In this document: in pieces, positions 15,446 through 62,335 of the stretch
How positions within the stretch are numbered: the stretch's first letter is position 1
Layout: each line of letters opens with the position of its first letter
Source: Protonemura montana
Lineage: Eukaryota > Arthropoda > Insecta > Plecoptera > Nemouridae
Direction of reading: 5' to 3'
Length of the DNA stretch: 64,000 bases
Assembly (NCBI GenBank): GCA_947568835.1
Contig: OX387608.1
Location: 1,166,501-1,230,500, forward strand
Translations under genes and position numbers: made by a program
The notes under the pieces: generated by a model
Seen by the model: the letters and a program-made list of their open reading frames with translations, nothing else
What the model was told of the DNA's origin: nothing
Databases searched by the model: none

Positions 15446-15447
15446 AA

Positions 15448-30470: not shown

Positions 30471-30475
30471 ATGCG

Positions 30476-31640: not shown

Positions 31641-31644
31641 ATTT

Positions 31645-35450: not shown

Positions 35451-35451
35451 A

Positions 35452-36565: not shown

Positions 36566-36576
36566 GTTACATGTAG

Positions 36577-40466: not shown

Positions 40467-40467
40467 A

Positions 40468-41112: not shown

Positions 41113-41435
41113 CACGTTAAGCCTGATATGCACACATGGCGGCCATTTCTTGGAGATGGCCACTCTCTCCCCTTGGCACATCTCTGCAAAAATGTGGCAG
41201 CTGGGTGTGGGGAGAGGGTGGGGAAGGAGGGGGGGGGGGGATTACCATGCACATCGTCGCATCATTATACACTAATATCACTTCCGCCCGCGGCGCTGTT
41301 AGAGGTAATCATATTATTTGCGACCAGATAATTGCTGTCATCGGACAACAAGGACATTTTCCCCGTGAAAACATCCTTCTCTTATCCAACATACCGAACC
41401 AGCATTGAGTTTATAGTCACAGCGCTAATATTAAA
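41113..41435. other. Unique spacer with lone 45-bp unit and G-run
   Basis: A partial 45-bp unit lies at about 41125-41170 ('acatggcggccatttcttgg', then 'agatggccactctct'), and a G-rich run at 41218-41240. No gene. Confidence 0.6.
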
Positions 41436-41875
41436 CGTGCTGCTGAGCAAACGAGGCCGGCAACACGTGGTAACGGTAGGTGCCACCAGATGGTGCTTGC
41501 TGCTGAGCAAACGAGGCCGGCAACACGTGGTAACATAGGTGCCACCAGATGGTGCTTGCTGCTGAGCAAACGAGGCCGGCAACACGTGGTAACGGTAGGT
41601 GCCACCAGATGGTGCTTGCTGCTGAGCAAACGAGGCCGGCAACACGTGGTAACGGTAGGTGCCACCAGATGGTGCTTGCTGCTGAGCAAACGAGGCCGGC
41701 AACACGTGGTAACATAGGTGCCACCAGATGGTGCTTGCTGCTGAGCAAACGAGGCCGGCAACACGTGGTAACGGTAGGTGCCACCAGATGGTGCTTGCTG
41801 CTGAGCAAACGAGGCCGGCAACACGTGGTAACGGTAGGTGCCACCAGATGGCGCTTGCTGCTGAGCAAACGGGGA
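41436..41875 (+). repeat. 60-bp minisatellite, about 7 copies
   Basis: Unit is gctgctgagcaaacgaggcc, ggcaacacgtggtaacggta, ggtgccaccagatggtgctt. Two units are 58 bp (taacataggtg). It abuts the 92-bp array directly. A lone fragment of the same unit is at 52239-52266, beside the LDLa exon. Confidence 0.95.
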
Positions 41876-42695
41876 ACAGAAACATTCACAGAAACATCTG
41901 AATTTTACTGCATGTGATTGGAAGTCGTCATGGCAACAGTTTCAACAAAATGTTCAACTATAAGTTGGATCTCTAGCTCATAGAAACATCTGAATTTCAC
42001 TGCATGTGATTGGAAGTCGTCATAGCAACAGTTTCAACAAAATGTTCAACTATAAGTTGGATCTCTAGCTCACAGAAACATCTGAATTTCACTGCATGTG
42101 ATTGGAAGTCGTCATGGCAACAGTTTCAACAAAATGTTCAACTATAAGTTGGATCTCTACCTCACAGAAACATCTGAATTTCACTGCATGTGATTGGAAG
42201 TCGTCATGGCAACAGTTTCAACAAAATGTTCAACTATAAGTTGGATCTCTAGCTCACAGAAACATCTGAATTTCACTGCATGTGATTGGAAGTCGTCATG
42301 GCAACAGTTTCAACAAAATGATCAACTATAAGTTGGATCTCTAGCTCACAGAAACATCTGAATTTCACTGCATGTGATTGGAGGTCGTCATGGCAACAGT
42401 TTCAACAAAAGGTTCAACTATAAGTTGGATCTCTAGCTCACAGAAACATCTGAATTTCACTGCATGTGATTGGAAGTCGTCATGGCAACAGTTTCAACAA
42501 AATGTTCAGCTATAAGTTGGATCTCTAGCTCACAGAAACATCTGAATTTCACTGCATGTGATTGGACGTCGTCATGGCAACAGTTTCAACAAAATGTTGA
42601 ACTATAAGTTGGATCTCTAGCTCACAGAAACATCTGAATTTCACTGCATGTGATTGGAAGTCGTCATGGCAACAGTTTCAACAAAATGTTCAGCT
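41876..42695 (+). repeat. 92-bp repeat, about 9 copies
   Basis: Unit starts cacagaaacatctgaatttc and ends ataagttggatctctagct. Copies differ by single substitutions (gttca/gatca, gaagtc/gacgtc). The last copy stops at 'aatgttcagct'. Confidence 0.95.
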
Positions 42696-43145
42696 AGGAG
42701 GCGAGATTTCGGTAAAACCGTACATTAAAGCTAGAAACTACGGTGACTCAACTTCGCTGGATCCTCGACTATGTTTGTTGCTGTGAAGAGTCATTAGAGC
42801 TGTGTTAGTCCCGTACCATTCTGTTTGGGAGCCACAGACTGTCACCCGCTGCAATATCGTCTCATGCCGTTGGAAACGTGAATGAGCTCACAACGCTGTT
42901 TCAATAATGGGCAATTCATTAAAGTGCTTTCACTTGAAAACATCCACTAGTTTGCACGTGATTCGACTGTTTTCATTTACATTACCTTTCCATAATTCTC
43001 CAGGGACATTGTTGATTGATTAACATTGTTTAACAACGAAATGTTTGGCAAATCTGCATGCGTCAAGCACTGACAGCCGTCAGGTGATGATCAACAGCAA
43101 GCCGATGATGAAGCTGGTCTAGTCTAGATGGGATCTAGGATTAAC
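42696..43145. other. Unique sequence, nothing recognised
   Basis: Single-copy DNA between two arrays. No gene or splice site recognised. Confidence 0.5.
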
Positions 43146-44518
43146 CCGGTGGACCCTGTCCAACAGCACCAAGGACCGGCCACCGCTTAGCCTTGTCCCT
43201 TTGACACACTGTGTTGGCTGCTCCTGTCCAACAGCACCAAGGACCGGCCACCGCTTAGCCTTGTCCCTTTGACACACTGTGTTGGCTGCTCCTGTCCAAC
43301 AGCACCAAGGACCGGCCACCGCTTAGCCTTGTCCCTTTGACACACTGTGTTGGCTGCTCCTGTCCAACAGCACCAAGGACCGGCCACCGCTTAGCCTTGT
43401 CACTTTGACACACTGTGTTGGCTGCTCCTGTCCAACAGCACCAAGGACCGGCCACCGCTAAGCCTTGTCCCTTTGACACACTGTGTTGGCTGCTCCTGTC
43501 CAACAGCACCAAGGACCGGCCACCGCTTAGCCTTGTCACTTTGACACACTGTGTTGACTGCTCCTGTCCAACAGCACCAAGGACCGGCCACCGCTTAGCC
43601 TTGTCATTTTGACACACTGTGTTGGCTGCTCCTGTCCAATAGCACCAAGGACCGGCCACCGCTTAGCCTTGTCACTTTGACACACTGTGTTGGCTGCTCC
43701 TGTCCAACAGCACCAAGGACCGGCCACCGCTTAGCCTTGTCACTTTGACACACTGTGTTGGCTGCTCCTGTCCAACAGCACCAAGGACCGGCCACCGCTT
43801 AGCCTTGTCACTTTGACACACTGTGTTGGCTGCTCCTGTCCAACAGCACCAAGGACCGGCCACCGCTTAGCCTTGTCACTTTGACACACTGTGTTGGCTG
43901 CTCCTGTCCAATAGCACCAAGGACCGGCCACCGCTTAGCCTTGTCACTTTGACACACTGTGTTGGCTGCTCCTGTCCAACAGCACCAAGGACCGGCCACC
44001 GCTTAGCCTTGTCACTTTGACACACTGTGTTGGCTGCTCCTGTCCAACAGCACTAAGAACCGGCCACCGCTTAGCCTTGTCACTTTGACACACTGTGTTG
44101 GCTGCTCCTGTCCAACAGCACCAAGGACCGGCCACTGCTTAGCCTTGTCACTTTGACACACTGTGTTGGCTGCTCTTGTCCAACAGCACCAAGGACCAGC
44201 CACCGCTTAGCCTTGTCACTTTGACACACTGTTGGTTGCTCCTGTCCAACAGCACCAAGGACCAGCCACTGCTTAGCCTTGTCCCTTTGACACACTGTGT
44301 TGGCTGCTCCTGTCCAACAGCACCAAGGACCAGCCACCGCTTAGCCTTGTCACTTTGACACACTGTGTTGGCTGCTCCTGTCCAACAGCACCAAGGACCA
44401 GCCACCGCTTAGCCTTGTCACTTTGACACACTGTGTTGGCTGCTCCTGTCCAACAGCACTAAGGACCGGCCACCGCTTAGCCTTGTCACTTTGACACACT
44501 GTGTTGGCTGCTCCTGTC
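43146..44518 (+). repeat. 68-bp minisatellite, about 20 copies
   Basis: Unit is gctgctcctgtccaacagca, ccaaggaccggccaccgctt, agccttgtcactttgacaca, ctgtgttg. Two sub-types differ at 'gtccctttg' and 'gtcactttg'; the first dominates the left edge. One unit near 44230 lacks two bases (ctgttggttg). Confidence 0.96.
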
Positions 44519-45081
44519 CGAATTATACTCTCGAAAATATTCCGAATCAATTATTTCCAGACCAACTCACCCTATAAAAAGTAATCTCTCAGTCAATGTT
44601 TTTGAAACGCCAAACCTTCCATTGTCATGACTCGATTACTGCGTTTCGAAACAGGATTTCGTCGCCAAATATTTGTGTTCGCTCAACGATATTGTATGCT
44701 AATTTCCTAATTAAATTTTGCTTTTTCAGTCCAACTCAATTATTGGCCGATAAAATCACAATCAGTTCTGCTTCCATCATACAAATTCATTTCCCTCGAG
44801 AAATTTCAACGTTTGAAAAGTGATTTTCACGTTTAAAAATACATTTCCTGTTGCCGCTCCTCGCGGATGAAACAATTCAAATGAATTCCGTTTCATTAAA
44901 CACACAAATCTGTGGCAATTACTAATTACCATCTGACTCCATTACCCATCTCACTGAAACAAAGATGCAATTACAACAAGTGCTTGTCTTGCATTTGTTA
45001 CGCATCGGCAAGCGCTGACTCATGAAAGTAGGTACAAATAAGTTGCGCTGAAAACTGCACTTGTTTGACGTGACTGCCCTC
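44519..45081. other. AT-rich unique sequence
   Basis: A plus-strand frame of 75 codons (44596-44823) has a fair acceptor-like 'ttgctttttcag' at about 44720-44731, but no consensus donor follows. Not called. Confidence 0.45.
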
Positions 45082-45615
45082 ACCGGTCCTCGTGAGATCA
45101 CTGAAGTTAAGTAACACTGCGCTGGGGCAGGTATTGGATGGGTGACCATCATACACATGACCAGTTCTGTTCGGGAGAGAGGTTGGAGGGATGAAAGTTA
45201 AGCAACACTGCAATGGGTCAGGTATTGGATGGGTGACCATCATTCACATGACCAGTTCTGTTCGGGAGAGAGGTTGGAGGGATGAAAGTTAAGCAACACT
45301 GCGATAGGTCAGGTATTGGATGGGTGACCATCATACACATGACCAGTTCTGTTTGGGAGAGAGGTTGGAGGGATGAAAGTTAGTACAGCAACTTCACTCG
45401 CCTTGCATATCAACCTCTCGACAGCATGGATTTGTGGAGGAATCCTGTTGTTCGCGTTGTACCGTCCTTCGGAAGGGACGTTAAGCCGGTGGTCCCCTTG
45501 GTCTTCGACAGGAGTAGGCTACGTGCCGGAACCGGGTTTACCCTCCACCTTTCGTAACTTGGTTATGTTTATCATCATTTTTATCCTTATCATCACCCAA
45601 CTCTTTCACCGAAGT
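45082..45615 (+). mobile_element. 5S-SINE with about three head units
   Basis: Starts 'caccggtcctcgtgagatca', has three 91-bp units, then the body from 'gttagtacagcaacttcac'. The end is diverged after 'ggaaccgggtttaccctcc' (ttggttatgtttatcatc) and the terminal gtcgttaaac is missing. The open frame runs on to 97 codons. Confidence 0.88.
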
Positions 45616-45883
45616 CATTCAACCAGTGCCACTGGGGCCGATGCCAAAGGAGTGCCAACATTTTAAATCAACTTAACATTTTCTAAGTTCCTTCGCACTA
45701 AACTCTCTTATGAAGCCCGATGACGTAGGCTGTCGTAGATCGTACCATTCTATGAATGAATCTCGCCACGTGACTGAATTGTCAAGTGCCGAGCACAGAT
45801 GATGTCGTGATGTCGCGGGCGAGGCGAGCTACTCTCACTAGATTGCTCGTAATCACAGCTTAGCCGAGAACACCCGGTCGTCT

Positions 45884-47190
45884 GCTCTGGCTGGCTGGAT
45901 CCTATGCTCTATCCAGGTTATTTGAGATCAGCTGGCTGGATCCTATGCTCTATCCAGGTTATTTGAGATCAGCTGGCTGGATCCCATGCTCTATCCAGGT
46001 TATTTGAGATCAGCTGGCTGGATCCCATGCTCTATCCAGGTTATTTGAGATCAGCTGGCTGGATCCTATGCTCTATCCAGGTTATTTGAGATCAGCTGGC
46101 TGGATCCTATGCTCTATCCAGGTTATTTGAGATCAGCTGGCTGGATCCCATGCTCTATCCAGGTTATTTGAGATCAGCTGGCTGGATCCCATGCTCTATC
46201 CAGGTTATTTGAGATCAGCTGGCTGGATCCTATGCTCTATCCAGTTTATTTGAGATCAGCTGACTGGATCCTTTGCTCTATCCTGGTTATTTGAGATCAG
46301 CTGGCTGGATCCTATGCTCTATCCAGGTTATTTGAGATCAGCTGGCTGGATCCTATGCTCTATCCAGGTTATTTGAGATCAGCTGACTGGATCCTTTGCT
46401 CTATCCATGTTCTTTGAGATCAGCTGGCTGGATTCTATGCTCTATCCAGGTTATTTAAGACCAGCTGACTGGATCCTTTGCTCTATCCAGGTTATTTGAG
46501 ATCAGCTGGCTGGATCCTATGCTCTATCCAGGTTATTTGAGATCAGCTGGCTGGATCCTATGCTCTATCCTGGTTATTTGAGATCAGCTGGCTGGATCCT
46601 ATGCTCTATCCAGGTTATTTGAGATCAGCTGGCTGAATCCTATGCTCTATCCAGGTTATTTACGATCAGCAGGCTGGATCCTTTGCTCTATCCAGGTTAT
46701 TTGAGACCAGCTGACTGGATCCTTTGCTCTATCCAGGTTATTTGAGATCAGCTGGCTGGATCCTATGCTCTATCCAGGTTATTTGAGATCAGCTGGCTGG
46801 ATCCTATGCTCTATCCAGGTCATTTGAGATCAGCTGGCTGGATCCTTTGCTCTATCCATGTTATTTAAGATCAGCTGACTAGATCCTATGCTCTATCCAG
46901 GTCATTTGAGATCAGCTGGCTGGATCCTATGCTCTATCCAGGTCATTTGAGATCAGCTGGCTGGATCCTATGCTCTATCCAGGTCATTTGAGATCAGCTG
47001 GCTGGATCCAATGCTCTATCTAGGTTATTTGAGATCAGCTTGCTGGATCCTATGCTCAATCCAGGTTATTTGAGATCAGCTGGCTGGATCCTATGTTCTA
47101 TCTAGGTTATTTGAGATCAGCTGGCTGGATCCTATGCTCTATCCAGGTTATTTGAGATCAGCTGGCTGAATCCTATGCTCTATCCAGGTT
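45884..47190 (+). repeat. 41-bp satellite, array 2 (about 32 copies)
   Basis: Same unit as 10816-11568 with more variation: ggtcatttgag, ttaagatcagctgac and gcaggctgg. It begins mid-unit at 'ctggctggctggatcctatg'. Confidence 0.96.
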
Positions 47191-48011
47191 ATTTGGAATC
47201 AGTGACTTCTTCCAAGCATTTCAAATTACAAATTCAGTAATTAGACTGCAAGGCTAGACCAGGCAATCAGGGAAAAGTGGATCGTGTAATCAGCCGTGAC
47301 GTCGAACTTCTATCGTGGTTCTCCGTAATAATTACCCTGAGGGTCGATGCTCTCCCAGAGGCGATCTCACAAGGATGCATCTTCCTTGCCCTGGGATTTC
47401 CCTCGGGATTTCCCACGCTTTTTCAGCTCGATTCCTGTTCTCAGTGCCGCGTGAGATTGATGGGCCGTGCTGGTTCCTGAGTTCTCCATTTCCTTTTGTT
47501 GGGTGCGATTCACGTTGCGTTTGGCGGGCGGCTTTCAAGTTGGTTTGAAAACATCTTCCCCATCATCTACCCGAGTAGCGGTCAAATATTGAACACTAGG
47601 AAAGTATCGCTGTCTTGCAACACAAATCAGAGTACAGAGGAAAAGTGGCTTTCTTGATTCTCTACTTTTTCACGTTTTGATATTTTAAAAACGTAAACTA
47701 TTTTTATTTGATTTATTTTTATTTTTGTCAATATGCACAGATTTGAAGGCTTTGTGTGTCAACGTGTTTTAAATCAAAGTTTTAAATATTAGTAACCATG
47801 ACTTCAGCCGTTTTCTATACCCAATTTTCTTCTTCTATTTTCCACTTAATTTCGACCCCGAAAAGTTTGACCGCTCAATGGTCGAGTCGAACCCAAACAG
47901 CAACAAAATCACGTGACTTTCAGATTTAAAATCAGCTCAAATCTGACATCAGAAACAACCAAATAATGATCAATTCATTTACAAAAATCGTTACCTCTGT
48001 AAGTTGTCGAT
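47191..48011. other. Unique sequence, no gene recognised
   Basis: Plus frames at 47277-47548 are GC-richer, with a Cys- and Pro-containing product but no recognised domain. The rest is AT-rich. No splice pair identified. Confidence 0.45.
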
Positions 48012-48625
48012 AGTTGATTGATTTGTGGTGTTTAACGACGCACTGATTTGACATCTAGCCACGCGGCACTGGTCTAATGGCGTCGGTGTATGAGTAGATG
48101 ATGATGAACATAACCTAGCCTAGAAGTGAGGAGGGTAAAACCGGTGCCGGCACGTAGCCTACTCCTGTTGAAGACCAAGGGGACCACCGGCTTAACGTCC
48201 CTTCCGAAGGACGGTACAACGCGAACAACAGGATTCCTTCACAAATCCATGCTGTCAAGAGGTTGATAAGCAAGGTGAGTGAAGTTGCTGAACTAACTTT
48301 CATCTCTCCAACCTCTCTCCCGAACAGAACTGGTCATGTGTATGATGGTCACCGATCCAATACCTGACTCAGCGCAGTGTTGCTTAACTTTCATCCCTCC
48401 AACCTCTCTCCCGAACAGAACTGGTCATGTGTATGATGGTCACCCATCCAATACCTGACCCAGCGCAGTGTTGCTTAACTTACATCCCTCCAACCTCTCT
48501 CCCAAACAGAACTGGTCATGTGTATGATGGTCACCCATCCAATACCTGACTCAGCGCAGTGTTACTTAACTTCTATGATCTCACGAGAACCGGTGTTACC
48601 AACACGACAAACTGTTCGGTCTAAA
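48012..48625 (-). mobile_element. 5S-SINE with about three head units
   Basis: Minus-strand copy. The 5S-like start is 'gttggtaacaccggttctcg' (48605-48586), followed by units and then a body ending 'gtgcgtcgttaaacaccaca' with an 'aatcaatcaac' tail. The 62-codon frame is intact (48303-48115). Confidence 0.9.
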
Positions 48626-48705
48626 TTGTCTTAGAGATGACTGAAGTTAAGCAACATTGCGCAGGCGCATGTGTGTTGGATGGGTGACCACCACACAGTA
48701 AAGAG
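48626..48705 (+). repeat. Lone 5S-like fragment, opposite orientation
   Basis: 'gactgaagttaagcaacatt' and 'ttggatgggtgaccaccac' with a unit-internal insertion (gcaggcgcatgtgtg). It faces the 5S start of the minus-strand SINE next to it, so the two heads lie head to head within 80 bp. Confidence 0.7.
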
Positions 48706-49151
48706 GTTACCGGGATCGAAGCTTGTCTGTGAACCTCGCCGATCCACGGGACAGTTTCATCCCGAGTCTCGAGGGAGAAGCGAATCTTCCCGAACGTGGC
48801 TCGCCGCTAGAATTATAACGTAATTTAAAAGTTCCCCATTCATCGGTGATGAGCTGGGGCCGCCTTGATCGCTCAACTTTTCACCCCCCAACCACCCACC
48901 ACCCACCACCCAACCCCTCGACCACCCAACCCCTCGACCACCCAACCCCTAACTGAGCACCTTCTTCCCCCCCGAACCTCGGCATAGATCCCCCGACCTA
49001 GAACCACTACGATCTGTTCAGCATAAGAAGCAAGAAGTAACTCAACATTTTACTATACAAGTAGTTACAACCATCAGATGTAAGATGCTTATTATATCAT
49101 TATATTCAATATTATTTAATAATTACCTCACATAATTATATTAAGAGATTG
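48706..49151. other. Unique sequence with C-rich tract
   Basis: C-rich imperfect repeat at 48885-48955 (accacccaacccctcg). Otherwise AT-rich. No gene. Confidence 0.5.
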
Positions 49152-49300
49152 TTTTTAGACTCATGTCTACTTGATGTAAACTTAGCACTAGTTTTAACAA
49201 AAACTATTTCAACTGGGTTTTCAATGCTAAGTGAAGAACAACTAAATTTCCCTTTAATTTAGAATTTTAGTTGTTCTTTCAAATAGTTTTTGATATTTGA
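49152..49300 (+). mobile_element. Fragment of the foldback MITE-like family
   Basis: 'tttttagactcatgtctact', 'gatgtaaacttagcactagt', 'aactgggttttcaatgctaa' and 'gaacaactaaatttccc' match the left arm of 56286-56921. A short reversed piece 'agttgttctttcaaatagttttt' closes it, so this is an internally deleted copy. Confidence 0.7.
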
Positions 49301-49707
49301 AGAGATATAAGCAAATAGCTGCATTTAATTTCCAATGAAATGGCGATTACAAAATGGTTTTTGAATGTTTCATTAAAAAGAGAACCCCTCTGTAAAACTG
49401 AAGTTAAATTGTGATAATTGTTGCAAAGTCAACTTAGTAGAGAGGAACTGTAGTTGACCTTTCATCGACGTCAGGGGGGAGGGGGGTCCTCCCCTCCTCA
49501 ACGTGAAATAAGTTTAAACTCCAGAATTTCAACCTTTATCGCTGCTGATTCCCGGAATACTTCGATTTCCATCAAAGTTCTCTCAAACGCTCGTCTTTCT
49601 CTGCTACTTACTCGGATTAGGTTTTTCTAATAGAACCTTTCGATCAATTTTATACCTGCAAACATTTGATATGTTTTTCAGATTTTTTTTCCGTAAAATT
49701 ACGATCG
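49301..49707. other. Unique sequence, nothing recognised
   Basis: Includes a G/C switch tract at about 49468-49500 (ggggggaggggggtcctccc). No gene. Confidence 0.5.
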
Positions 49708-51919
49708 CTTGATCCTATGCTCTTCCCAGGTTATTTGAGATCAGCTGACTGGATCCTATGCTCTATCCAGGTTATTTAAGATCAGCTGGCTGGATCCTAT
49801 GCTCTATCCAGGTTATTTGAGATCAGCTGGCTGGATCCTATGCTTTATCCAGGTTATTTAATATCAGCTGGCTGGATCCTATGCTCTATCCAGGTTATTT
49901 GAGATCAGCTGGCTGGGTCCTATGCTCTATCCAGGTTATTTGAGATCAGCTGGCTGGATCCTATGCTCTATCCAGGTTATTTGAGATCAACTGGCTGGAT
50001 CCTATGCTCTATCCAGGTTATTTGAGATCAGCTGGCTGGATCCTATGCTCTATCCAGGTTATTTGAGATCAGCTGGCTGGATCCTATGCTCTATCCAGGT
50101 TATTTGAGATCAGCTGGCTGGATCCTATGCTCTATCCAGGTTATTTGAGATCAGCTGGCTGGACCCTATGCTCTATCCAGGTTATTTGAGATCAGCTGGC
50201 TGGATCCTATGCTCTATCCAGGTTATTTGAGATCAGCTGGCTGGATCCTATGCTCTATCCAGGTTATTTGAGATCAGCTGGCTGGATCCTATGCTCTATC
50301 CAGGTTATTTGAGATCAGCTGGCTGGACCCTATGCTCTATCCAGGTTATTTGAGATCAGCTGGCTGGATCCTATGCTCTATCCAGGTTATTTGAGATCAG
50401 CTGACTGGATCCTATGCTCTATCCAGGTTATTTGAGATCAGCTGGCTGGATCCTATGCTCTATCCTGGTTATTTGAGATCAGCTGGCTGGATCATATGCT
50501 CTATCCAGGTTATTTAAGATCAGCTGGCTGGATCCTATGCTCTATCCAGGTTATTTAAGATCAGCTGGCTGGATCCTATGCTCTATCCAGGTTATTTGAG
50601 ATCAGCTGGCTGGATCCTATGCTCTATCCAGGTTATTTGAGATCAGCTGACTGGATCCTATGCTCTATCCAGGTTATTTGAGATCAGCTGACTGGATCCT
50701 ATGTTCTATCCAGGTTATTTGAGATCAGCTGACTGGATCCTTTGCTCTATCCAGGTTATTTAAGATCAGCTGGCTGGACCCTATGCTCTATCCTGGTTAT
50801 TTGAGATCAGCTGGCTGGATTATATGCTCTATCCAGGTTATTTAAGATCAGCTGGCTGGATCCTATGCTCTATCCAGGTTATTTAAGATCAGCTGGCTGG
50901 ACCCTATGCTCTATCCTGGTTATTTGAGATCAGCTGGCTGGATCATATGCTCTATCCAGGTTATTTAAGATCAGCTGGCTGGATCCTATGCTCTATCCAG
51001 GTTATTTAAGATCAGCTGGCTGGATCCTATGCTCTATCCAGGTTATTTGAGATCAGCTGGCTGGATCCTATGCTCTATCCAGGTTATTTGAGATCAGCTG
51101 ACTGGATCCTATGCTCTATCCAGGTTATTTGAGATCAGCTGGCTGGATCCTATGCTCTATCCAGGTTATTTGAGATCAGCTGACTGGATCCTTTGCTCTA
51201 TCCAGGTTATTTAAGATCAGCTGGCTGGACCCTATGCTATATCCTGGTTATTTGAGATCAGCTGGCTGGATCATATGCTCTATCCAGGTTATTTAGGATC
51301 AGCTGGCTGGATCCTATGCTCTATCCAGGTTATTTGAGATCAGCTGACTGGATCCTGTGCTCTATCCAGGTTATTTGAGATCAGCTGGCTGGATCCTGTG
51401 CTCTATCCAGGTTATTTGAGATCAGCTGGCTGGATCCTATGCTATATCCAGGTTATTTGAGATCAGCTGGCTGGATCCTATGCTCTATCCAGGTTATTTG
51501 AGATCAGCTGGCTGGATCCTATGCTCTATCCAGGTTATTTGATATCAGCTGGCTGGATCCTGTGCTCTATCCAGGTTATTTGAGATCAGCTGGCTGGATC
51601 CTGTGCTCTATCCAGGTTATTTGAGATCAGCTGGCTGGATCCTATGCTCTATCCAGGTTATTTGAGATCAGCTGGCTGGATCCTATGCTCTATCCAGGTT
51701 ATTTGAGATCAGCTGGCTGGATCCTGTGCTCTATCCAGGTTATTTGAGATCAGCTGGCTGGATCCTATGCTCTATCCAGGTTATTTGAGATCAGCTGGCT
51801 GGATTCTATGCTCTATCCAGGTTATTTGAGATCAGCTGGCTGGATTCTATGCTCTATCCAGGTTATTTGAGATCAGCTGGCTGGATCCTATGCTCTATTC
51901 AGGTTATTTGAGATCAGCT
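49708..51919 (+). repeat. 41-bp satellite, array 3 (about 54 copies)
   Basis: Longest array of the family; ends at 'gatcagctacctaagg', only 57 bases before the LDLa exon. A marked unit series (ctttg, then ggaccctatgct, then tcctgg, then ggat.atatg) recurs with 'ggaccc' at about 50776 and 51227, 451 bp or 11 units apart. Confidence 0.96.
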
Positions 51920-51976
51920 ACCTAAGGTTATGTTTTAAAGTTGCTATGACTGACTTGATCTCGTGGCTGTTCACAG

Positions 51977-52102
51977 ATGTCAGCAGCACTGTCTGCGGTC
52001 CAGGGACCTTCAAGTGTCCAGAGGGAAAATGCATCCCTTCCCTCTGGGTGTGCAACTACCAGCAAGACTGCGAGAAGGGCGAAGACGAGTTCCAGGCTTG
52101 TG
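51977..52102 (+). CDS. LDL-receptor class A (LDLa) exon
   Basis: The acceptor 'gtggctgttcacag' (with 'tgactgac' as a possible branch site) and donor 'g|gtaagt' bound a 126-bp exon, exactly 42 codons, entering and leaving in phase 1. Its first two bases finish a codon; the protein then reads [13 protein letters not shown]... to ...GEDEFQAC. Six cysteines are spaced C-x6-C-x4-C-x6-C-x5-C-x9-C, with the Trp before Cys4, DC at Cys5 and the acidic EDE before Cys6 that LDLa modules use to bind calcium. LDLa modules are extracellular, disulfide-bonded, ligand-binding units, usually encoded by phase 1-1 exons. The host gene is not identified; lipoprotein-receptor-like proteins and perlecan-like proteoglycans are candidates. 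No neighbouring exon lies close by. Confidence 0.93.
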
Positions 52103-52129
52103 GTAAGTGCTAAGTCATAGTTTGGGTGC

Positions 52130-52192
52130 GTGGGGTTAAGCAACATTGCGTCTGATCTGGTATTGGATGGATGACCACTTTGATGACAAGTT
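52130..52192 (+). repeat. Diverged 5S-like fragment in LDLa downstream intron
   Basis: 'ggggttaagcaacattgcgt', then 'tggtattggatggatgacca'. One 5S-like unit with substitutions, starting about 28 bases after the donor site. No SINE body is attached. Confidence 0.7.
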
Positions 52193-52238
52193 GAGTTTGT
52201 AGGTGATGTCACAGAGCCAGCGTTGATGTTAAGCTTTC

Positions 52239-52266
52239 TGCTGAGCAAACGAGGCCGGCAACACGT
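52239..52266 (+). repeat. Lone fragment of the 60-bp minisatellite unit
   Basis: 28 bases (gctgagcaaacgaggccggc plus aacacgtg) match the unit of the array at 41436-41875. The two are 10 kb apart. Confidence 0.8.
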
Positions 52267-52359
52267 GCTGACGTAGGGTGGTTACTCAGTGTTGATTGGC
52301 TTAAGAAATATCATGAGGATCGGTGTTTTTAAAACGTCAAAACCATGCACTCGTGTTAG

Positions 52360-52926
52360 CCTTACCTAACGTAACCTAACCTAACCTAACCCAACCTAAC
52401 CTAACCTAACCTGACCTAACCTAACCTAACCTGACCTGACCTAACCTAACCTAACCTAACCTAACCTGACCTAACCTAACCTAACCTAACCAAACCTAAC
52501 GTAACCTAACCTAACCAAACCTAACCTAACCTAACCTAACCTAACCTAACCTAACCTAACCTAACCAAACCTAACCTAACCTAACCTAACCTAACCTAAT
52601 CTAACGTGACCTAACCAAACCTAACGTAACCTAACCTAACCTAACCTAACCTAACCTAACCTAACCTGACCTAACCTAACCTAACCCAACCTAACCTAAC
52701 CAAACCTAACCTAACCTAACCTAACCTAACCTAATCTAACGTGACCTAACCAAACCTAACGTAACCTAACCTAACCTAACCTAACCTAACCTAACCTAAC
52801 CTAACCAAACCTAACCTAACCTAACCTAACCTAACCTAACCTAACCTAACCTAACCAAACCTAACCTAACCTAACCTAACCTAACCTAACCTAACCTAAC
52901 CTAACCTAACCTAACCTAACCTAACC
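52360..52926 (-). repeat. Interstitial (CCTAA)n telomere-type tract
   Basis: Reverse complement of TTAGG, so opposite in orientation to the tract at 16085-17180. Variants: CCTGA, CCAAA, CGTAA and a marked block 'aatctaacgtgacctaacca' at 52595 and 52730, 135 bp (27 pentamers) apart. It lies about 260 bp downstream of the LDLa exon. Confidence 0.95.
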
Positions 52927-53650
52927 TTACCACAACCTGGTGGACTCTAACTACACATTGCCAACTTAAGAATGCAAAATAAAGCCAGTCTTCACCGCGG
53001 AGTTTGAAAATTAACCAGTAAATTATGACCAAACAATGCATCATGCACTTAAATTCTTTGTGAATTTAACAGTTTATTTACGTGAAATTAATTCTATTGA
53101 AAAATAAGAACTTAAATGCAAAACTAAAAGTCCTAATGACTTCTGCTAAATACCCACCGTACACTAGCGGATTCTAGCAATGGCTGCCAAAAAGCAGTTT
53201 GCGAGCTTGGTTTCCTGCCTAAACCTGATAAAAGTTAAAAGTAATCCAAAATATATTAATTTTAACTTTGGTTGATTAACATTTATTGTTTTTCATTAAA
53301 TATTTTGTTTTCCTGAAATTATTAAATGTTTCAACCAAACAAAAACATTATTTAGTTGCTTTTAAATCGGATAGTTAACAGTAGCATCTTGGTGTCATAT
53401 TTTCTAGGATGTTATGAGAAATTGTTGTGTATGGCTGATATTTTAAAGTGTAATGTAAACTAAGATGGAGAAGTGTCCTCGTCGCGACGTCGGTAGGTGG
53501 CGTCGCGACGCCCGATCTTGGGCTGCTTTGTCTTGCTTGGTGAACAGCGAGACAAAGAAGCGTCGTCTTATTTCTTGAGACGTTCATTGTTGGGACGTAA
53601 CAGCGTCTCGGTCCTAATTATCCTCCTGGTGGTCAGCATGTCAGTCTAGA
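52927..53650. other. Unique sequence with one strong hairpin
   Basis: AT-rich, no gene. CGTCGCGACG, itself a palindrome, occurs at 53480-53489 and 53501-53510, 11 bp apart, in a short CpG-rich patch. The minus frame 53375-53587 covers this patch and has no recognised domain. Confidence 0.5.
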
Positions 53651-53654
53651 GAGT

Positions 53655-54740
53655 GGCCCGGCCATGTTGGCACGGTCAGATGGGAGATGGCCACTCTCTG
53701 ACCGTGCCAACATGGCGGCTATTGCTTAGAGATGGCCACTCTCTGACCGTGCTAACATGGTGGCCATTGCTAGGAGATTGCCACTCTCTGACCGTGCCAA
53801 CATGGCGGCCAATGCTTGGAGATGGCCACTCTCTGACTGTGCCAACATGGCGGCCATTGCTTGGAGATTGCCACTCTCTGACCGTGCCAACATGGCGGCC
53901 AATGCTTGGAGATGGCCACTCTCTGACCGTGCCAACATGGCGGCCATTGCTTGGAGAAGGCCACTCTCTGACCGTGCCAACATGGCGGCCATTGCTTGGA
54001 GAAGGCCACTCTCTGACCGTGCCAACATGGCGGCCAATGCTTGGAGATGGCCACTCTCTGACCGTGCCAACATGGCGGCCATTGCTTGGAGATGGCCACT
54101 CTCTGACCGTGCCAACATGGCGGCCATTGCTTGGAGATGGCCACTATCTGACCGTGCCAACATGGCGGCCATTGCCTGGAGATGGCCAGTCTCTGACCGT
54201 GCCAACATGGTGGCCATTGCCTTGAGATGGCCACTCTCTGACCGTGCCAACATGGCGGCCATTGCCTGGAGATGGCCACTCTCTGACCGTGCCAACATGG
54301 CGGCCATTGTTTGGAGATGGCCACTCTCTGACCGTGCCAACATGGCGGCCATTGCCGGGAGTTGGCCACTCTCTGACCGTGCCAACATGGCGGCCATTGT
54401 TTGGAGATGGCCACTCTCTGACCGTGCCAACATGGCGGCCATTGCTTGGAGATGGCCACTCTCTGACCGTGCCAACATGGCGGCCATTGCTTGGAGATGG
54501 CCACTCTCTGACCGTGCCAACATGGCGGCCATTGCCTGGAGATGGCCAGTCTCTGACCGTGCCAACATGGCGGCCATTGTTTGGAGATGGCCATTCTCTG
54601 ACCGTGCCAACATGGCGGCCATTGCCGGGAGTTGGCCACTCTCTGACCGTGCCAACATGGCGGCCATTGTTTGGAGATGGCAACTCTCTGACCGTGCCAA
54701 CATGGCGGCCATTGCTTGGAGATGGCCACTCTCTGACCGC
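53655..54740 (-). repeat. 45-bp satellite, array 3 (about 24 copies)
   Basis: Inverted relative to 13530-13985. It preserves AACATGGCGGC in nearly every unit. Marked units recur: 'gttggccact' at 54361 and 54631 (6 units), 'gatggccagt' at 54181 and 54541 (8 units). Long open frames on both strands follow from the 15-codon period. Confidence 0.96.
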
Positions 54741-55027
54741 TAGTTAACTCTCTATGTCTAGCGCAATGCTCTAATTAGGTGGCCTGTGTAGGGGGTTGGG
54801 TGGGAGGGGGACGCGTAATTGCTCGGTAATTGACTAATTAGCTGTAGACGCACTTTTTTAGTACAAAAGACCAGTGCTGCCCTCACCGGATTCCTTGGAA
54901 TACTAACTCAATGACAACAATCGGAAGGATAATTCACTGAGAGAATCTTCACGTGAAATGAACTCGCGTTGAAAAGTTGGGGAATCAAATAATGGACTAA
55001 GAGGAGATGAAGAGGAGATGAAGATTT

Positions 55028-55828
55028 ATGTCCCATGTGCCGCATGTCCCATGTGCCCCATGTCCCATGCCCCATGTCCCATGTCCCATGTCCCATGTCC
55101 CATGCCCCATGCCCCATGTCCTATGTCCCATGTCCCATGTCCCATGCCCCATGTCCCATGTCCCATGTCCCATGTCCCGTGTCCCATGCCCCATGCCCCG
55201 TGTCCCGTGTCCCATGCCCCATGTCCCATGTCCCATGCCCCATGCCCCGTGTCCCATGCCCCATGTCCCATGTCCCATGTCCCATGTCCCATGCCCCATG
55301 TCCCATGCCCCATGTCCCATGTCCCATGTCCCATGTCCCATGTCCCATGCCCCGTGCCCCATGCCCCGTGCCCCATGCCCCGTGCCCCATGCCCCGTGCC
55401 CCATGCCCCGTGCCCCATGCCCCATGCCCCGTGCCCCATGCCCCGTGCCCCATGCCCCGTGTCCCATGTCCCATGTCCCATGCCCCATGTCCCATGCCCC
55501 GTGCCCCATGCCTCGTGTCCTATGCCCCATGTCCCATGTACCATGCCCCATGCCCCGTGCCCCGTGTCCCATGTCCCATGCCCCATGTCCCATGTCCCAT
55601 GTCCCATGTCCCATGTCCCATGTCCCATGTCCCATGTCCCATGTCCCATGTCCCATGTCCCATGTCCCATGTCCCATGTCCCATGTCCCATGTCCCATGC
55701 CCCATGCCCCATGCCCCATGCCCCATGTCCCATGCCCCATGTCCTATGTCCCATGTCCCATGTCCTATGTCCCATGTCCCATGCCCCATGCCCCATGCCC
55801 CATGCCCCATGTCCCATGCCCCATTTCC
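55028..55828 (+). repeat. 7-bp repeat (TGTCCCA)n, about 114 copies
   Basis: Uninterrupted heptamers with T/C change at one site (atgtccc / atgcccc) and occasional cgtg. The minus strand reads GGG-N4-GGG-N4 throughout, satisfying the usual G-quadruplex pattern. Low-complexity open frames in all six readings are not genes. Confidence 0.96.
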
Positions 55829-55965
55829 CACAACCTCCAACCTCTCTCCCGAACAGAACTGGTCATGTGTATGATGGTCACCCATCCAATACCTGACCCA
55901 GCGCAGTGTTGCTTAACTTCAGTGATCTCACTAGAACAGGTGTTTCCAACACGACAAACCGTTCA
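55829..55965 (-). repeat. Single 5S-like head unit
   Basis: Minus strand: 'gtcgtgttggaaacacctgt', 'tctagtgagatcactgaagt', 'taagcaacactgcgctgggt', then the 91-bp unit tail. An un-expanded 5S head with no body, abutting the heptamer array. Confidence 0.8.
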
Positions 55966-56285
55966 GTTCCAGATTTTTTTTTTTTGATTGTCGTAATCAG
56001 AAATTTCCCCGCATCCTGACGCAACGTTCATGTTTTGAAACTCATACCACGGCTAGAACGTGAAGGGGACGGGGGGAGGGGGAGGGGGGCTGGACCCCAC
56101 CCTCCTGTCGACGGGGTCTAGGGGCAGGGGAGGGTTGCGTGCTCCCACGGGACTCAGCCGGGAACGTTAATGAAGGTGCATCATCCCGTTTACCTTGATA
56201 GCGACCTCGCGATTCTATTCCAGAGATTGCTTGAAAAAAAAAACCCAAAAGTCTTAACAGATATCGGCAACCACTTTGATTTGAT
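55966..56285. other. Unique sequence with G-rich tract
   Basis: G-rich run at 56066-56092 on plus, C-rich partner near 56093-56105. No gene recognised. Confidence 0.5.
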
Positions 56286-56921
56286 TGTTCTTAGACTCAA
56301 GTCTACTTGATGTAAACTTAGCACTAGTTTTAACAAAAACTATTTCAACTGGGTTTTGAATGCTAAGTGAAGAACAACAAAATTTCCCAATGTTTCGTAA
56401 CTTGTACCTGTTACTTTATCAAGGGTTAAAGCAGTCCTGACAATTTTCCAATAACAAAAGAACCACATAAAATTATAACAATTACCAAGTTCAAGCTTCC
56501 TAAATGCATCTAAATAAAATAATCAGGGTCAATAACTCAAAAACTAATGTATTCTGTATTTTCTGAAATAAGATCTCGAACACATTTTTTTCAATACACA
56601 TAATAAGTCAGTAAAAACGCCAGTTTGTTCGGGATTTTATTTCCGAAAATACAAAATATGTTAGTTGTTTAGTTATTGACTCTGAATATTTTATTTAGAT
56701 GCATTCAGGAAGCTTGAACTTGGTAATTGTTATAATTTTATGTGGTTCTTTTGTTATCGGAAAATTGTCAAGACTGTTCTTACCCTTGATAAAGTAACAG
56801 GTACAAGTTACGAAACGTTGGGAAATTCAGTTGTTCTTCACGTAGCATTCAAAACCAAGTTGAAACAGTTTTTGTTAAAACTAGTGCTAAGTTTACATCA
56901 AGTAGACATGAGTCTAAGAAC
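56286..56921. mobile_element. Full foldback element, about 295-bp inverted arms
   Basis: Left end gttcttagactcaagtctac, right end gtagacatgagtctaagaac. Landmarks mirror one another across the whole length: 'cctgttactttatcaaggg' / 'cccttgataaagtaacagg' and 'attaccaagttcaagcttcc' / 'ggaagcttgaacttggtaat'. A central loop of about 50 bp is all that is unpaired. No transposase; a non-autonomous element, superfamily not determined. Confidence 0.85.
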
Positions 56922-57385
56922 ATTCATGTACCGGTCATGACGCTGTGATTCCAAGAAATACTGGTCGCCATGACAACTGACAATAATGATAAACAATTCA
57001 TTTAAAATATACTTGCACTTTTTGTTCCTTATATTGAAATAATCCGAGTAGTTTACAATTGACGTCATTTGTTTTGACTGGAAAACACTGCCTGGAAAAC
57101 ATTTACAAAATAATAACTAATGAACAGGCATTTGTTTGAAGTAATTTCATGACTAACGTTGTTTTAATGTGTGACGTAGAACGACTAAAATAAATCAAGT
57201 AATTAATTTCTTTGTGTTCTGCGACCGCCCACGGCGTAGTTTCATTAAAACATAAGAAATTGTCACATAAACTTTATCTTAATGAGGAACTTTGCATAGT
57301 TTTTAAATTCAGTTCGCCGCTCTTCAAATCGCTTACACATTCCAGAATTATTCACATTTTTCAACTGTCGTTAAGAGATTTTTAG
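56922..57385. other. AT-rich unique sequence
   Basis: No gene or repeat recognised. Confidence 0.5.
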
Positions 57386-57556
57386 ATGAAATCTGATTTA
57401 AATTGCAAACGCTTGCAATGCGCGGGGTATTTTATTATTATCAACACTAATAACCGTCTCAAAAATTGATGCCCAAACGGGGACTCGAACCCCGATCACG
57501 AATGAAAAATAAAACTCATCCAACGACAAATTGGAGTTATTCGAGTTTGACAGGTT

Positions 57557-57606
57557 GTGACGTGATATAGCGTCACTAGAATCAGAGTGACTGTGAGTAT
57601 TCACAG
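57557..57606 (+). other. Overlapping-hairpin leader of the tRNA-headed family
   Basis: Three inverted repeats in 50 bases: GTGACG..CGTCAC (57557-57576), GTCACT..AGTGAC (57572-57591) and CTGTGA-gtat-TCACAG (57591-57606). Neighbouring stems share bases, so they are mutually exclusive in part. The block is kept in copies at about 12957-13000, 29526-29570, 31528-31572 and 59417-59461. Confidence 0.75.
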
Positions 57607-58458
57607 CCTCTTGGTTCTACTCCTTGGAGATCCGTCATTTTCATCAAATACACTAAAATCATCTCAAAAAGCCAGTGTCCAAGTAGCTCAATTGGTTAGA
57701 GCAACACCCGTGACAGGTGGAGATCGGGGTCCAAGTAGCTCAATGGGTTAGAGCAACACCCGCGATAGGTGGAGATCGGGGTCCAAGTAGCTCAATTGGT
57801 TAGAGCAACACCCGCGACAGGTGGAGATCGGGGTCCAAGTAGCTCAATTGGTTAGAGCAATACCTGCGACAGGTGGAGATCGGGGTCCAAGTAGCTCAAT
57901 TGGTTAGAGCAATACCTGCGACAGGTGGAGATCGGGGTCCAAGTAACTCAATTGGTTAGAGCAACACCCGCGACAGGTGGAGATCGGGGTTCAAGTAGCT
58001 CAATTGGTTAGAGCAACACCCACGACAGGTGAAGATCGGGGTTCAAGTAGCTCAATTGGTTAGAGCAACACCCGCGACAGGTGGAGATCGGGGTCCAAGT
58101 AGCTCAATTGGTTAGAGCAATACCTGCGACAGGTGGAGATCGGGGTTCAAGTAGCTCAATTGGTTAGAGCAACACCCGCGACAGGTGGAGATCGGGGTCC
58201 AAGTAGCTCAATTGGTTAGAGCAACACCCGCGACAGGTGGAGATCAGGGTCCAAGTAGCTCAATTGGTTAGAGCAACACCCGCGACAGGTGGAGATCGGG
58301 GTCCAAGTAGCTCAATTGGTTAGAGCAACACCCGCGACAGGTGGAGATCGGGGTCCAATTGTAGCTCAATTGGTTAGAGCAACACCCGCGACAGGTGGAG
58401 ATCGAGGTCCAAGTAGCTCAATTAGTTAGAGCAACACCCGCGACAGGTGGAGATCGAG

Positions 58459-58531
58459 GTCCAAGTAGCTCAATTGGTTAGAGCAACACCCGTGACAGTT
58501 GGAGATCGGGGTTCGAGTCCCCGTCTGGGCA
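58459..58531 (+). other. Terminal full-length tRNA-like copy of element E
   Basis: 73 nt with gtccaag / tctgggc acceptor pairing, A box TAGCTCAATTGG, exact B box GGTTCGAGTCC and discriminator A. TTTT at about 58548 may end Pol III transcription. Anticodon loop 'cgtgaca' lacks T33. Confidence 0.72.
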
Positions 58532-58560
58532 TCAATATTTGAGACGGTTTTAGTGTTCAT

Positions 58561-59230
58561 AATAAAAAATAGTCTTTCGAGATTTTTTGCTCAGTTTCAC
58601 CGCTTTATTCCACCACTTTATTACACTGCAACGCTCATTCTTCAACGAGATACAGACGCGTTCGCCCAGCCCTTGCACCAGCGACAAGCGAGAAGCGTTA
58701 AAATCTAATATTCCCGTTCGTCTTCCCGCTCTCCCGACAATCAGTCGGGAAGTTATCCCTGTTCGTGGTTGGTTTCCTGGATGAAGTTACACCCGACGTC
58801 TCCCCCGGGTCAGGACCTGTCATCCCTGCGATCAGATCGACGACGTGACTACGAATCAATGTATCGGAAGGTCGATCGTTCAACGGGGCCGTGTGTTGAG
58901 ATCGGGTGGTTGGAGGTTCGCCGATAAAAGCTTGGAGTCGAGACGTTACGTAGGCCATCTTTGTCGGTCTTTGATCTTGCAGAGCCGGCCGAAGACGTTT
59001 AGCATTTAGGCTTTGATCCACTCGCTAAATTGTGTTCTTATTTCGCTGTTTTTCTTTTAAGAATTCTGTGATTTTTTTTTGTAAAATTTTTTATATAAAT
59101 TTAGGTCACATTGATGTGGTTCTGTCATTTTTGTTTTTAAAAAGATAAATCCCCCCCCCCCCCACTTTCCACAGCTGTCAAAAATAAGGACAGCTTCAGT
59201 CGATGAGGGCTTGCTCTGACTGATCTGTAC
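58561..59230. other. Unique sequence, no gene recognised
   Basis: CpG-rich from 58690 to 59000, with a minus frame of 107 codons (59021-58698) that I do not recognise. A C-run of about 15 lies at 59150-59164. No splice pair found. Confidence 0.4.
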
Positions 59231-59232
59231 GT

Positions 59233-60112
59233 GAAATCTGATTGAAATTGCAAACGCTTGCAATGCGCGGGGAATTTTATTATTATCAACACAAATAACT
59301 TCTCTAAAATTGATGTCCAAACGGGGACTTGAACCCCGATCTCTTCACCTATCGCGGGTGTAAAATGCATCGCATCCAACGTCAAGTTGTAGTTATTTGA
59401 TTTTGACAGGTTGTGACGTGATATAGCGTCACTAGAATCAGAGTGACTGTGAGTATTCACAGCCTCTTGGTTCTACTCCTTGGAGAACTGTCATTCTCAT
59501 CAAATACACTGAAATCATCTCAAAAAGCCAGTGTCCAAGTAGCTCAATTGGTTAGAGCAACACCCGCGACAGGTGGAGATCGGGGTCCAAGTAGCTCAAT
59601 TGGTTAGAGCAACACCCGTGACAGGTGGAGATCGGGGTCTAAGTAGCTCAATTGGTTAGAGCAACACCCGCGACAGGTTGGAGATCGGGGTGCAAGTAGC
59701 TCAATTGGTTAGAGCAACACCCGCGACAGGCGGAGATCGGGGTCCAAGTAGCTCAATTGGTTAGAGCAACACCCGCGACAGGCGGAGATCGGGGTGCAAG
59801 TAGCTCAATTGGTTAGAGCAACACCCGCGACAGGCGGAGATCAGGGTCCAAGTAGCTCAATTGGTTAGAGCAACACCCGCGACAGGCGGAGATCAGGGTC
59901 CAAGTAGCTCAATTGGTTAGAGCAACACCCGCGACAGGCGGAGATCGGGGTCCAAGTAACTCAATTGGTTAGAGCAACACCCGCGACAGGCGGAGATCGG
60001 GGTCCAAGTAGCTCAATTGGTTAGAGCAACACCCGAGACAGGTGGAGATCGGGATTCGAGTCCCCGTTTGGACATACATTTTTGAGAGGTGATAAGTGTT
60101 CCCAATAATAAA
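59233..60112 (+). mobile_element. tRNA-headed element F with both inverted ends
   Basis: End module at 59237-59275, inverted tRNA 3' half and part of the anticodon arm (59310-59360, 'atctcttcacctatcgcggg'), leader (59380-59530), about 10 units of 52 bp, full copy 60002-60074, and right end 'gaggtgataagtgttcccaa'. Units carry 'ggcggagatc' in a run of seven, unlike other copies, so the array expanded in place. Confidence 0.87.
60002..60074 (+). other. Terminal full-length tRNA-like copy of element F
   Basis: 73 nt with A box, near-exact B box (gattcgagtcc) and 3' end tttggaca. The loop reads cgagaca. Confidence 0.68.
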
Positions 60113-60786
60113 ATGACTGGCCCTTCTTTGCAGCCATCTTCTCTCCATCCCTTGTAATTAATTACACCGAATATTCTTGCAAGTATTTAGGCGACTTACT
60201 TATTATTGAAGTTTACAACAGAGATTAGAAAGTTGTAAAACTATGAACTTGATCGATGAGTAGCGTCCCTAGAATAACGGACTTAGCAGCTACTTACCTA
60301 CGAGCTTGGTTTAAGCATGAATACAGCATCGCTTGCAAGATATGCCGCTCGTTAGAAGACGAGGCATGTTTTGATGGAAGAACACGAAGCGGCCGTTTCC
60401 AGCTACACACGTTGCAAATCTTCACAATTACATTTCATAAACAAAGCGAGTATTAACGACCACGTGACTGTTTCTTGAGTATCCAAGTCGTAGGTAGGGT
60501 AGAAGTGGTCTAACATTTCAAAGTTTTCATCATTACTCTTATCTTAAAGCTAATATCTTCAATCTAGGTATCTTTAACATATTATCAATACTTGATATTA
60601 ATGCACAATGTTCATAAATAACTATAGGCAATACCATATTCTTACCAAAATATTATTGCTACTTTTCTAAGAAATTATATTTTATAATATAGATTAGTGC
60701 GCTGGATCCCAATGGTCAGCCATGTGTTTGCAGAGCTGTCAGTTAATAAATTGATTTTCTCTCTGAAATCCAAGTCAATCAGCAAC
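60113..60786. other. AT-rich unique sequence
   Basis: A plus frame of 66 codons (60256-60456) includes a Cys-containing stretch but no recognised domain. No splice pair found. Confidence 0.45.
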
Positions 60787-61004
60787 AACACATTCTGTTT
60801 TTAGAAAAACTATTTGAACTGGGTTTTGAATGCTAAGTAAAGGGCTACTAAATTTCCCTAAATTAACTAAATTACTAAATTAAGGGAAATTTAGTAGCCC
60901 TTTACTTAGCATTCAAAACCCAGTTCAAATAGTTTTTCTAAAAACTTGTGCTAAGGATAAATTAAATAGACATGAGTCTAAAAACCATCATAACACATTC
61001 TGTT
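60787..61004. mobile_element. Short foldback element bracketed by a 13-bp direct repeat
   Basis: 'aacacattctgtt' at 60787-60799 is repeated at 60992-61004. Inside, 'agaaaaactatttgaactgg' to 'aagggctactaaatttccct' is mirrored by 'agggaaatttagtagccctt' to 'ccagttcaaatagtttttct', about 68-bp arms around a short AT loop. The right end adds 'agacatgagtctaaaaacc', the family's terminal word. Confidence 0.82.
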
Positions 61005-61554
61005 ATTTTTTTAAACGAATGTCTCGCTGCCCTCGCTCAATTATTTCAGTGATGATTAACGACAATGGGTGAAATCGACGCCGTACAGTCGTGTTAGCCT
61101 TACCTTGCCACATTGTATTCCCATTCGTATTGTATTTGTATTCGTTCCGATTCCCCACAAGTTTCCACCACTCAAGTGGTCAACACTCATCGCCTCTCTT
61201 ACTTTGCTAGACTTTATATTATTCCATAAATCATAAGTCGAGGCCAGCGGTTGCCGGTAGTGCATGGCATGGGTTCACATGTTCGTTGTGTGTTTCGTGA
61301 TGGGGGGGGGGGGGGGGGGGGGAATATTTAGACACAATTCCATGGGTAGAAGGGGCTGTGGACTAAGTTAGGGGTAGGCAAGCCGCGCGAAAAGCTAATT
61401 GCTAAATTTGAAAATTAAAAACTAGGTCTTTGCAATGCATCACTAAAGAAAATTGATAGTGAATGTAAATTTAAAAATTCGCCAATTTATTGGCGGTATT
61501 ATATGACACTTAATATGTTTTTCTTTCTATTCCATTTATTTCCATCGAACGGTT
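61005..61554. other. Unique sequence with poly-G run
   Basis: A run of about 20 G at 61302-61322. AT-rich otherwise. No gene. Confidence 0.5.
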
Positions 61555-62335
61555 TGTCGTGTTGGTAACACCGGTTCTTGTGAGATCACCGAGGTTAAGT
61601 AACACTGCGCTGGTTCAGGTATTGAATGGGTCATACACATGACCAGTTCTGTTCGGGAGAGAGGTTGGAGGGATGAAAGTTAAGCAACACTGCGCTGGGT
61701 CAGGTATTGGATAGATGACCATCATACACATGACCAGTTCTGTTCGGGAGACAGGTTGGAGGGATGAAAGTTAAGCAACACTGCGCTGGGTCAGTTATTG
61801 AATGGGTGACCATCATACACATGACCAGTTCTGTTCGGGAGAGAGGTTGGAGGGATGAAAGTTAAACAACACTGCGCTGGGTCAGGTATTGGATGGATGA
61901 CCATCATACACATGACCAGTTCTGTTTGGGAGAGAGGTTGGAGGGATGAAAGTTAAGCAACACTGCGCTGGGTCAGGTATTGAATGGGTGACCATCGTAC
62001 ACATGACCAGTTCTGTTCGGGAGAGAGGTTGCAGGGATGAAAGTTAGTACAGCAACTTTATTCGCCTTGCTTATCAACCTCTCGACAGCATGGATTTGTG
62101 GAGGAATCCTGTTGTACGCGTTGTACCGTCCTTCGGAAGGTACGTTAAGCCAGTGGTCTCCTTGGTCTTCGACATGAGTAGGCTACGTGCTGGCACCGGA
62201 TTTCCCCTCCTCCCTTCCAGGCTAGGTTAGGTTCAGTATCATCCGCTCATTCACCGACGCCATTAGACCAGTGCCACATGGCCAGATGTCAAAACAGTGC
62301 GTCGTTAAGTCCCAATAATCAATCTTATATTTCCT
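61555..62335 (+). mobile_element. 5S-SINE with about five head units
   Basis: Starts 'gtcgtgttggtaacaccggt', then 'tcttgtgagatcaccgaggt'. Head units run to 62040, body to 'gtgcgtcgttaagtcccaat' plus an 'aatcaatct' tail. The open frame stops earlier than in sister copies because of a TGA in 'tcgacatgag'. Confidence 0.9.

Follow-up and report, generated by a model that had tools for sequence, protein, structure and literature searches.

The window analysed here is a stretch of 64,000 nt from the Protonemura montana genome (contig C11, OX387608.1; C11:1166501-1230500). Tandem repeats make up 51% of its bases, and among them lies a short sequence that reads as a single LDLa exon, which raises the question of what such an exon belongs to. 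An earlier note, made from the letters of the window, had proposed one large LDLa-repeat gene of which the window would be mostly intron. We are confident that this short exon belongs to an apparently intact LRP2/megalin gene on the + strand, in which it is exon 2 and the first LDLa exon to be detected. Under this model the remainder of the window is certainly intron downstream of the exon and probably so upstream of it.

An LDLa exon between tandem arrays

The exon (51977..52102, + strand, 126 nt) has six cysteines in the reading frame starting at 51979, and its product matched Pfam PF00057 (Ldl_recept_a) with 50.5 bits against a cut-off of 24.1 (E 2.5e-13) over profile positions 3-37 of 37, with no other family found in a Pfam search at E up to 1. 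The complete six-cysteine module noted earlier was thus recovered, as was its phase 1-1 exon structure, since the exon is preceded by TTCACAG, opens with AT GTC AGC, closes with TGT G, and is joined as G|GTAAGT to a 5′ splice site (52103..52108, + strand) that also serves as donor in the spliced model described below. With an LDLa profile built excluding this exon, its open frame scored 43.6 bits, compared to 7.1 bits for the runner-up in the window and 15.9 bits for the best of 20 first-order Markov shuffles of the window, which argues that the match is not due to chance. Neither a cysteine-pattern scan nor the profile detected a second LDLa module in the window.

Tandem Repeats Finder placed a 41-bp satellite array of 54 copies at 49707..51919 (+ strand), ending 57 bases before the exon, the same distance as in the earlier note. 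The acceptor island in between (51920..51976, + strand, 57 nt) holds CTGAC, a pyrimidine-rich stretch and CAG, and the CTGAC would fit a branch point. On the other side, a CCTAA pentamer tract (52360..52931, + strand, 114 copies) starts 257 bases downstream, close to the 260 or so estimated before. Just inside intron 2 are a fragment resembling a 5S-rRNA-like 91-bp unit (52135-52177, + strand) and one resembling a 60-bp satellite unit (52233-52277, + strand), with blastn E values within 52135..52277 of 2e-9 and 2e-14, respectively, against a chosen set of three sequences. A 5S gene beside the LDLa exon was considered and rejected, as an Rfam search of 51900-52400 came back empty at E up to 1 and fragments alone are present.

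A spliced gene model downstream of the window

A search with a local LDLa profile of 100 kb fetched on either side found further modules only downstream, from C11:1231278 to 1294587. In a whole-genome LDLa search (258,480,905 bases in 34 contigs, 150 of the 224 candidates scored), C11 contributed the window exon, + strand matches downstream to 1294587 and one match at 11.07 Mb, with no LDLa match upstream of the window exon on C11 among the scored candidates. Six YWTD (PF00058) matches fall in the gene region (C11:1250242-1299253), and one further YWTD match on C11 is located at 7.05 Mb on the opposite strand.

The spliced model starts at the window exon and comprises 70 exons over 87.8 kb (C11:1218477-1306271), with a stop codon at 1306269-1306271 and a product of about 4,496 residues; its 69 introns have a median length of 762 bp, the largest being 12,664 bp. 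The model is heuristic, having been built from codon-usage segments linked by a simple splice-site script, and the one junction at which the automatic chain had failed, with loss of frame beyond it (93 stops), was placed by hand. The open frame across junctions is partly by construction, since the script discards frames with stops. Some junctions are weak, in particular C11:1269071-1270313 (donor -2.0, acceptor -2.9), and both the end of exon 61 and the last LDLa module of cluster IV look shortened, so that the gene model is to be read as approximate.

The model contains 35 LDLa modules in four clusters of 6, 8, 10 and 11, all on the strand of the window exon, which comes first. The one large LDLa-repeat gene of the earlier note, with further LDLa exons along the + strand, is therefore borne out by these modules and by a modelled chain that reaches a stop codon. 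LDLa modules encoded as single phase 1-1 exons are a pattern of the LDLR family, and the earlier note had read the window exon in this way. That reading holds for the window exon and the next (exons 2 and 3), yet these are the exception among the 25 modelled exons that touch LDLa: exon 62 is also phase 1-1 but contains only the edge of one module, and most of the others encode two or three modules, whole or partial.

Exon 3 (C11:1231267-1231398, + strand, LDLa, phase 1-1) starts 767 bases beyond the end of the window, so the window after the LDLa exon is intron. This intron 2 covers window 52103..64000 on the + strand and runs on to C11:1231266, 766 bases beyond the window end; it is the 12,664-bp intron of the model and is 47% tandem array. 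Near the C-terminal end of the product, a hydrophobic stretch recognised by eye near residues 4341-4370 fits a single membrane span, and a pattern search found NPMY, an NPxY motif, at residue 4427.

The 5′ end of the gene

For the 52 kb before the LDLa exon, the claim that the window is mostly intron is valid only if the first coding exon lies further upstream. A scan of C11:1141000-1218476, with tandem repeats skipped, was made for an ATG, a signal peptide and a phase-1 donor; the stricter version yielded a single + strand candidate (C11:1150173-1150281, 16.2 kb before the window start, peptide MAFHVSRRFGVDLTRVPVISVCLVLGLTSLVASRTE), alongside a single control candidate from the - strand. In a looser version, with charge and cleavage-site terms that were added to the score after the candidate had first been seen, the candidate at C11:1150173 scored 12.43, a second + strand candidate at C11:1151174 scored 8.69 and the best of the - strand 9.65; a score of 12.43 was reached by 0/60 first-order shuffles (95th percentile 10.67). 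We regard C11:1150173-1150281 as a probable candidate for the first coding exon. If it is right, intron 1 would be 68,195 bp long, consist for 52% of tandem array and cover window 1..51976 (+ strand), and the 52 kb before the LDLa exon would probably be intron of the LRP2/megalin gene. The local LDLa profile found nothing above 10 bits in the 152 kb upstream (best 9.2 bits on the - strand, at most 6.8 bits on the + strand).

The nearest recognisable upstream coding segment is at C11:1140318-1140707 on the - strand and reads by eye like Skp1. Between C11:1140707 and the LDLa exon there are only weak coding segments, with two scoring above 17, both on the - strand; the strongest other coding segment of the window scores 18.1 and is also on the - strand, at C11:1180538.

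The gene could alternatively start within the window or not far ahead of the exon, and much of the upstream 52 kb would then be promoter or intergenic DNA. Such a late start is favoured by the 68 kb that separate the LDLa exon from a first exon that is only a candidate, and by a scan that omitted tandem repeats and presumed a signal peptide of the ordinary type, followed by a phase-1 donor. However, the LDLa exon follows an acceptor and opens in phase 1, so that a coding exon should precede it, and both + strand candidates (C11:1150173 and 1151174) precede the window; we consider a late start rather unlikely, and retain the distant first exon as the preferred placement.

Identity of the gene

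The ends of the model product were compared with the PDB, using the N-terminal 600 and the C-terminal 621 residues, which flank a middle part of 3,275, and for each of them the four best sequences were all LRP2. At the N-terminal end the stretch collinear with the top PDB chain corresponds to LRP2 67-652 (398 bits), and at the C-terminal end to LRP2 3969-4567 (341 bits), which includes part of the tail. As the alignment starts at LRP2 residue 67, the window exon is placed at the second LDLa module of vertebrate LRP2. Whole-sequence scores for the first 600 residues were 1467-1536 bits for LRP2 versus 591 for LRP4, a lead that is inflated by the many repeats in LRP2; when scored by single stretches the lead is smaller, with 398 bits for LRP2 versus 286 for LDLR.

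Vertebrate LRP2 has 7 LDLa modules in cluster I and 8, 10 and 11 in clusters II, III and IV, the latter three numbers fitting LRP1 as well, which has two modules in cluster I. Clusters II-IV of the model match these numbers, the last module being shortened, and cluster I has six modules in an alignment that begins at the second module of LRP2, where an exon that is split or diverged may have escaped detection. The first module (LDLa 1) is taken as absent or undetected. In addition to its LRP2 matches at both ends, the model resembles LRP2/megalin in its four LDLa clusters (6/8/10/11), its YWTD motifs, its hydrophobic span and its NPxY motif, and differs from it in that LDLa 1 was not found in 152 kb upstream and in introns that are 39% tandem array, the comparison being with PDB chains only. 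Based on these sequence comparisons, the gene is very likely LRP2/megalin. In Drosophila, Mgl is described as the orthologue of mammalian megalin/LRP2 (PMC8710305).

An LRP1-type gene or another member of the LDLR family would share LDLa, EGF and YWTD units with LRP2, and the PDB results, in which full-length LRP1 was absent from the matches and hence no competitor and whole-sequence scores favour repeat-rich chains, leave such a gene some room. The six modules of cluster I, compared to two in LRP1, make LRP1 unlikely; the alignment also reaches the LRP2 tail (3969-4567), and a separate group of LDLa and YWTD matches on contig C13 near 6.27-6.32 Mb could be LRP1, so that assignment to a relative of LRP2 appears very improbable. 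Weaker still is the notion that the LDLa sequence is a relic exon stranded among satellites outside any working gene, which would suit a window where nothing else is clearly coding and arrays crowd the exon on both sides, but which is hardly credible given consensus splice sites in phase 1-1, an LRP2 alignment that continues on from the exon, and a downstream 70-exon chain that starts in matching phase and by itself largely refutes it.

As an LRP2/megalin gene, if expressed as modelled, the locus would encode a large single-pass endocytic receptor. LDLa modules are small disulphide and calcium domains that bind ligands, and in LRP2 the YWTD/EGF units release the ligand while the NPxY motif of the tail serves to recruit clathrin adaptors; the window exon would thus be expected to encode one ligand-binding module of such a receptor. 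The gene is of a known kind, conserved and ordinary, with normal splice signals.

Repeats of the window and their distribution

The 41-bp unit is found in further arrays of the window (10822-11567 and 45890-47202) and, with up to 2 mismatches allowed, 24,020 times across the genome, compared to 0 for a reversed control pattern. The 41-bp satellite is thus not special to the LRP2 gene, and its arrays in the window would be members of a genome-wide family. Seven 8-kb samples at hand-chosen positions elsewhere contained 1.0-6.7% tandem repeat versus 51% in the window. Among 3.1-kb loci around eight LDLa matches, seven had 0-8.5% tandem repeat, while L002 in the LRP2 gene had 54.6%; L004, another LDLa locus of this gene, had 4.6%.

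The idea that satellites are enriched towards chromosome ends has partial support. On contig C1 the 41-bp unit is concentrated near the two ends: a hand count put 79/83 exact 41-bp copies less than 4 Mb from an end, among the 100 listed of the 24,020. On C11, 2-kb samples had 23% tandem repeat at 2.5 Mb and 9% at 4 Mb, and those at 0.6, 0.9 and 1.7 Mb had none, which speaks against an enrichment towards the end. No telomere array was seen in the first 1 kb of C11 or of C1; by eye, C11:1-1000 starts in sequence resembling an ordinary 5S rRNA gene and not in telomere repeats.

Other repeat families were also observed in the window. All six 52-bp arrays (6377-6864, 11923-12879, 28394-29454, 30707-31455, 57677-58531 and 59533-60074) repeat the head of a tRNA-like sequence in tandem, each array ending in a full tRNA-like sequence; these ends account for 6/7 Rfam tRNA matches, five being called tRNA-Ser by ARAGORN, and an upstream body ending in CCAGT is common to 5/6 of the arrays. 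The 52-bp arrays look like a SINE with a multiplied promoter part. The 91-bp arrays at 22628-26714, 40531-41130, 48294-48620 and 61544-62046 resemble tandem copies of a partial 5S-rRNA-like sequence, with 44 copies at 22676-26714, and a full 5S Rfam match overlaps 4/8 of the 91-bp arrays of the window. Finally, a 7-bp array of ATGTCCC (55028-55830, 114 copies) adjoins 5S-like sequence at 55847-55967.

Tandem arrays in the introns

The satellite-filled introns that the earlier note had envisaged recur along the gene: tandem arrays account for 39% of all bases in the modelled introns, are present in 29/69, and fill at least half of the intron in 19. The median length is 926 bp for introns with arrays versus 664 bp for those without. 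Of the 29 array-bearing introns, 11 have an array no more than 50 nt away from the 5′ splice site (0, 3, 15 and 16 nt in the four closest), and in 6 the distance to the 3′ splice site is at most 60 nt (17, 24, 29 and 48 nt in the four closest). Only 34 of the 13,493 exon bases are inside arrays, all in exon 11. A 404-bp intron that splits an LDLa module (C11:1280760-1281163) is made up almost entirely of 50-bp satellite, whose array begins at the fourth intron base, where it overlaps the donor, and leaves the acceptor 24 nt outside. For this intron we considered whether mobile satellites had brought whole introns, as introners would, and rejected this, as there was no evidence of insertion together with splice sites.

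The simplest reading is that arrays may grow freely in introns while selection preserves the short sequences that splicing relies on. Presumably they are transcribed within the introns and then spliced out, and they may be tolerated provided that the splice signals beside each exon, which are short, stay intact; no role for the satellites is required by the evidence. Satellite introns as such are known: the Drosophila Y genes kl-3 and kl-5 are described as having introns that hold megabases of satellite, making up >99% of the gene (PMC6508621). As presented there, they resemble the P. montana gene in that coding exons are separated by satellite-bearing introns, and differ in scale, since the largest introns here are 68,195 bp (candidate, 52% array) and 12,664 bp (47%), with several repeat families. 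The megabase size and the >99% of gene length that mark satellite intron gigantism were not found in the LRP2 gene. Something new is unlikely here, given a conserved gene with normal splice signals and the far more satellite-rich introns already described (PMC6508621); an ordinary LRP2 gene in repeat-rich DNA is the most likely reading. The unusual part is the closeness of the arrays to the splice signals, together with an array at the edge of exon 11. In our literature search, no paper combined satellite DNA, introns and megalin, or intronic satellites, tandem repeats and arthropod introns.

An array at the edge of exon 11

This array (C11:1244455-1246856, outside the window) has a 49-bp unit, the first of which consists of the final 28 nt of coding sequence in exon 11 and the 5′ splice site. 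The unit is present in 33 copies at up to 3 mismatches, all in this array and none elsewhere in the genome. As the peptide of unit 1 falls within the part aligned to LRP2, the edge of exon 11 is the probable origin of the array. There are 33 GTAAGT sites in the array, and the frame is open into the next modelled exon from the first only (1/33); any other site puts a stop codon in frame, so that the spliceosome would have to pick the first of 33.

It is tempting to extend this to a view in which arrays are born in place, exon edges included, and grow until minimal splice signals stop them, with the first of the 33 GTAAGT having to be chosen; we hold this as a tentative and somewhat doubtful possibility. 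A plus-strand blastn comparison of all modelled exons (70) with all modelled introns (69), at E up to 1e-3, detected an exon-derived array only for exon 11 in its own intron, which speaks against the wider form of this view, and exon edges as a general source of arrays in the gene were rejected in favour of one case and not a rule.

Conclusions

With the LRP2/megalin reading, an isolated exon becomes part of a nearly complete gene that can be named, and the window is explained as mostly megalin intron. The closeness of arrays to splice sites in a large conserved gene is informative on how short an intron sequence may suffice for splicing. With the array at the exon 11 edge, the choice of a 5′ splice site can be tested directly, and, if arrays are indeed born in place, it would be a natural test of how the first is chosen among many equal 5′ splice sites.
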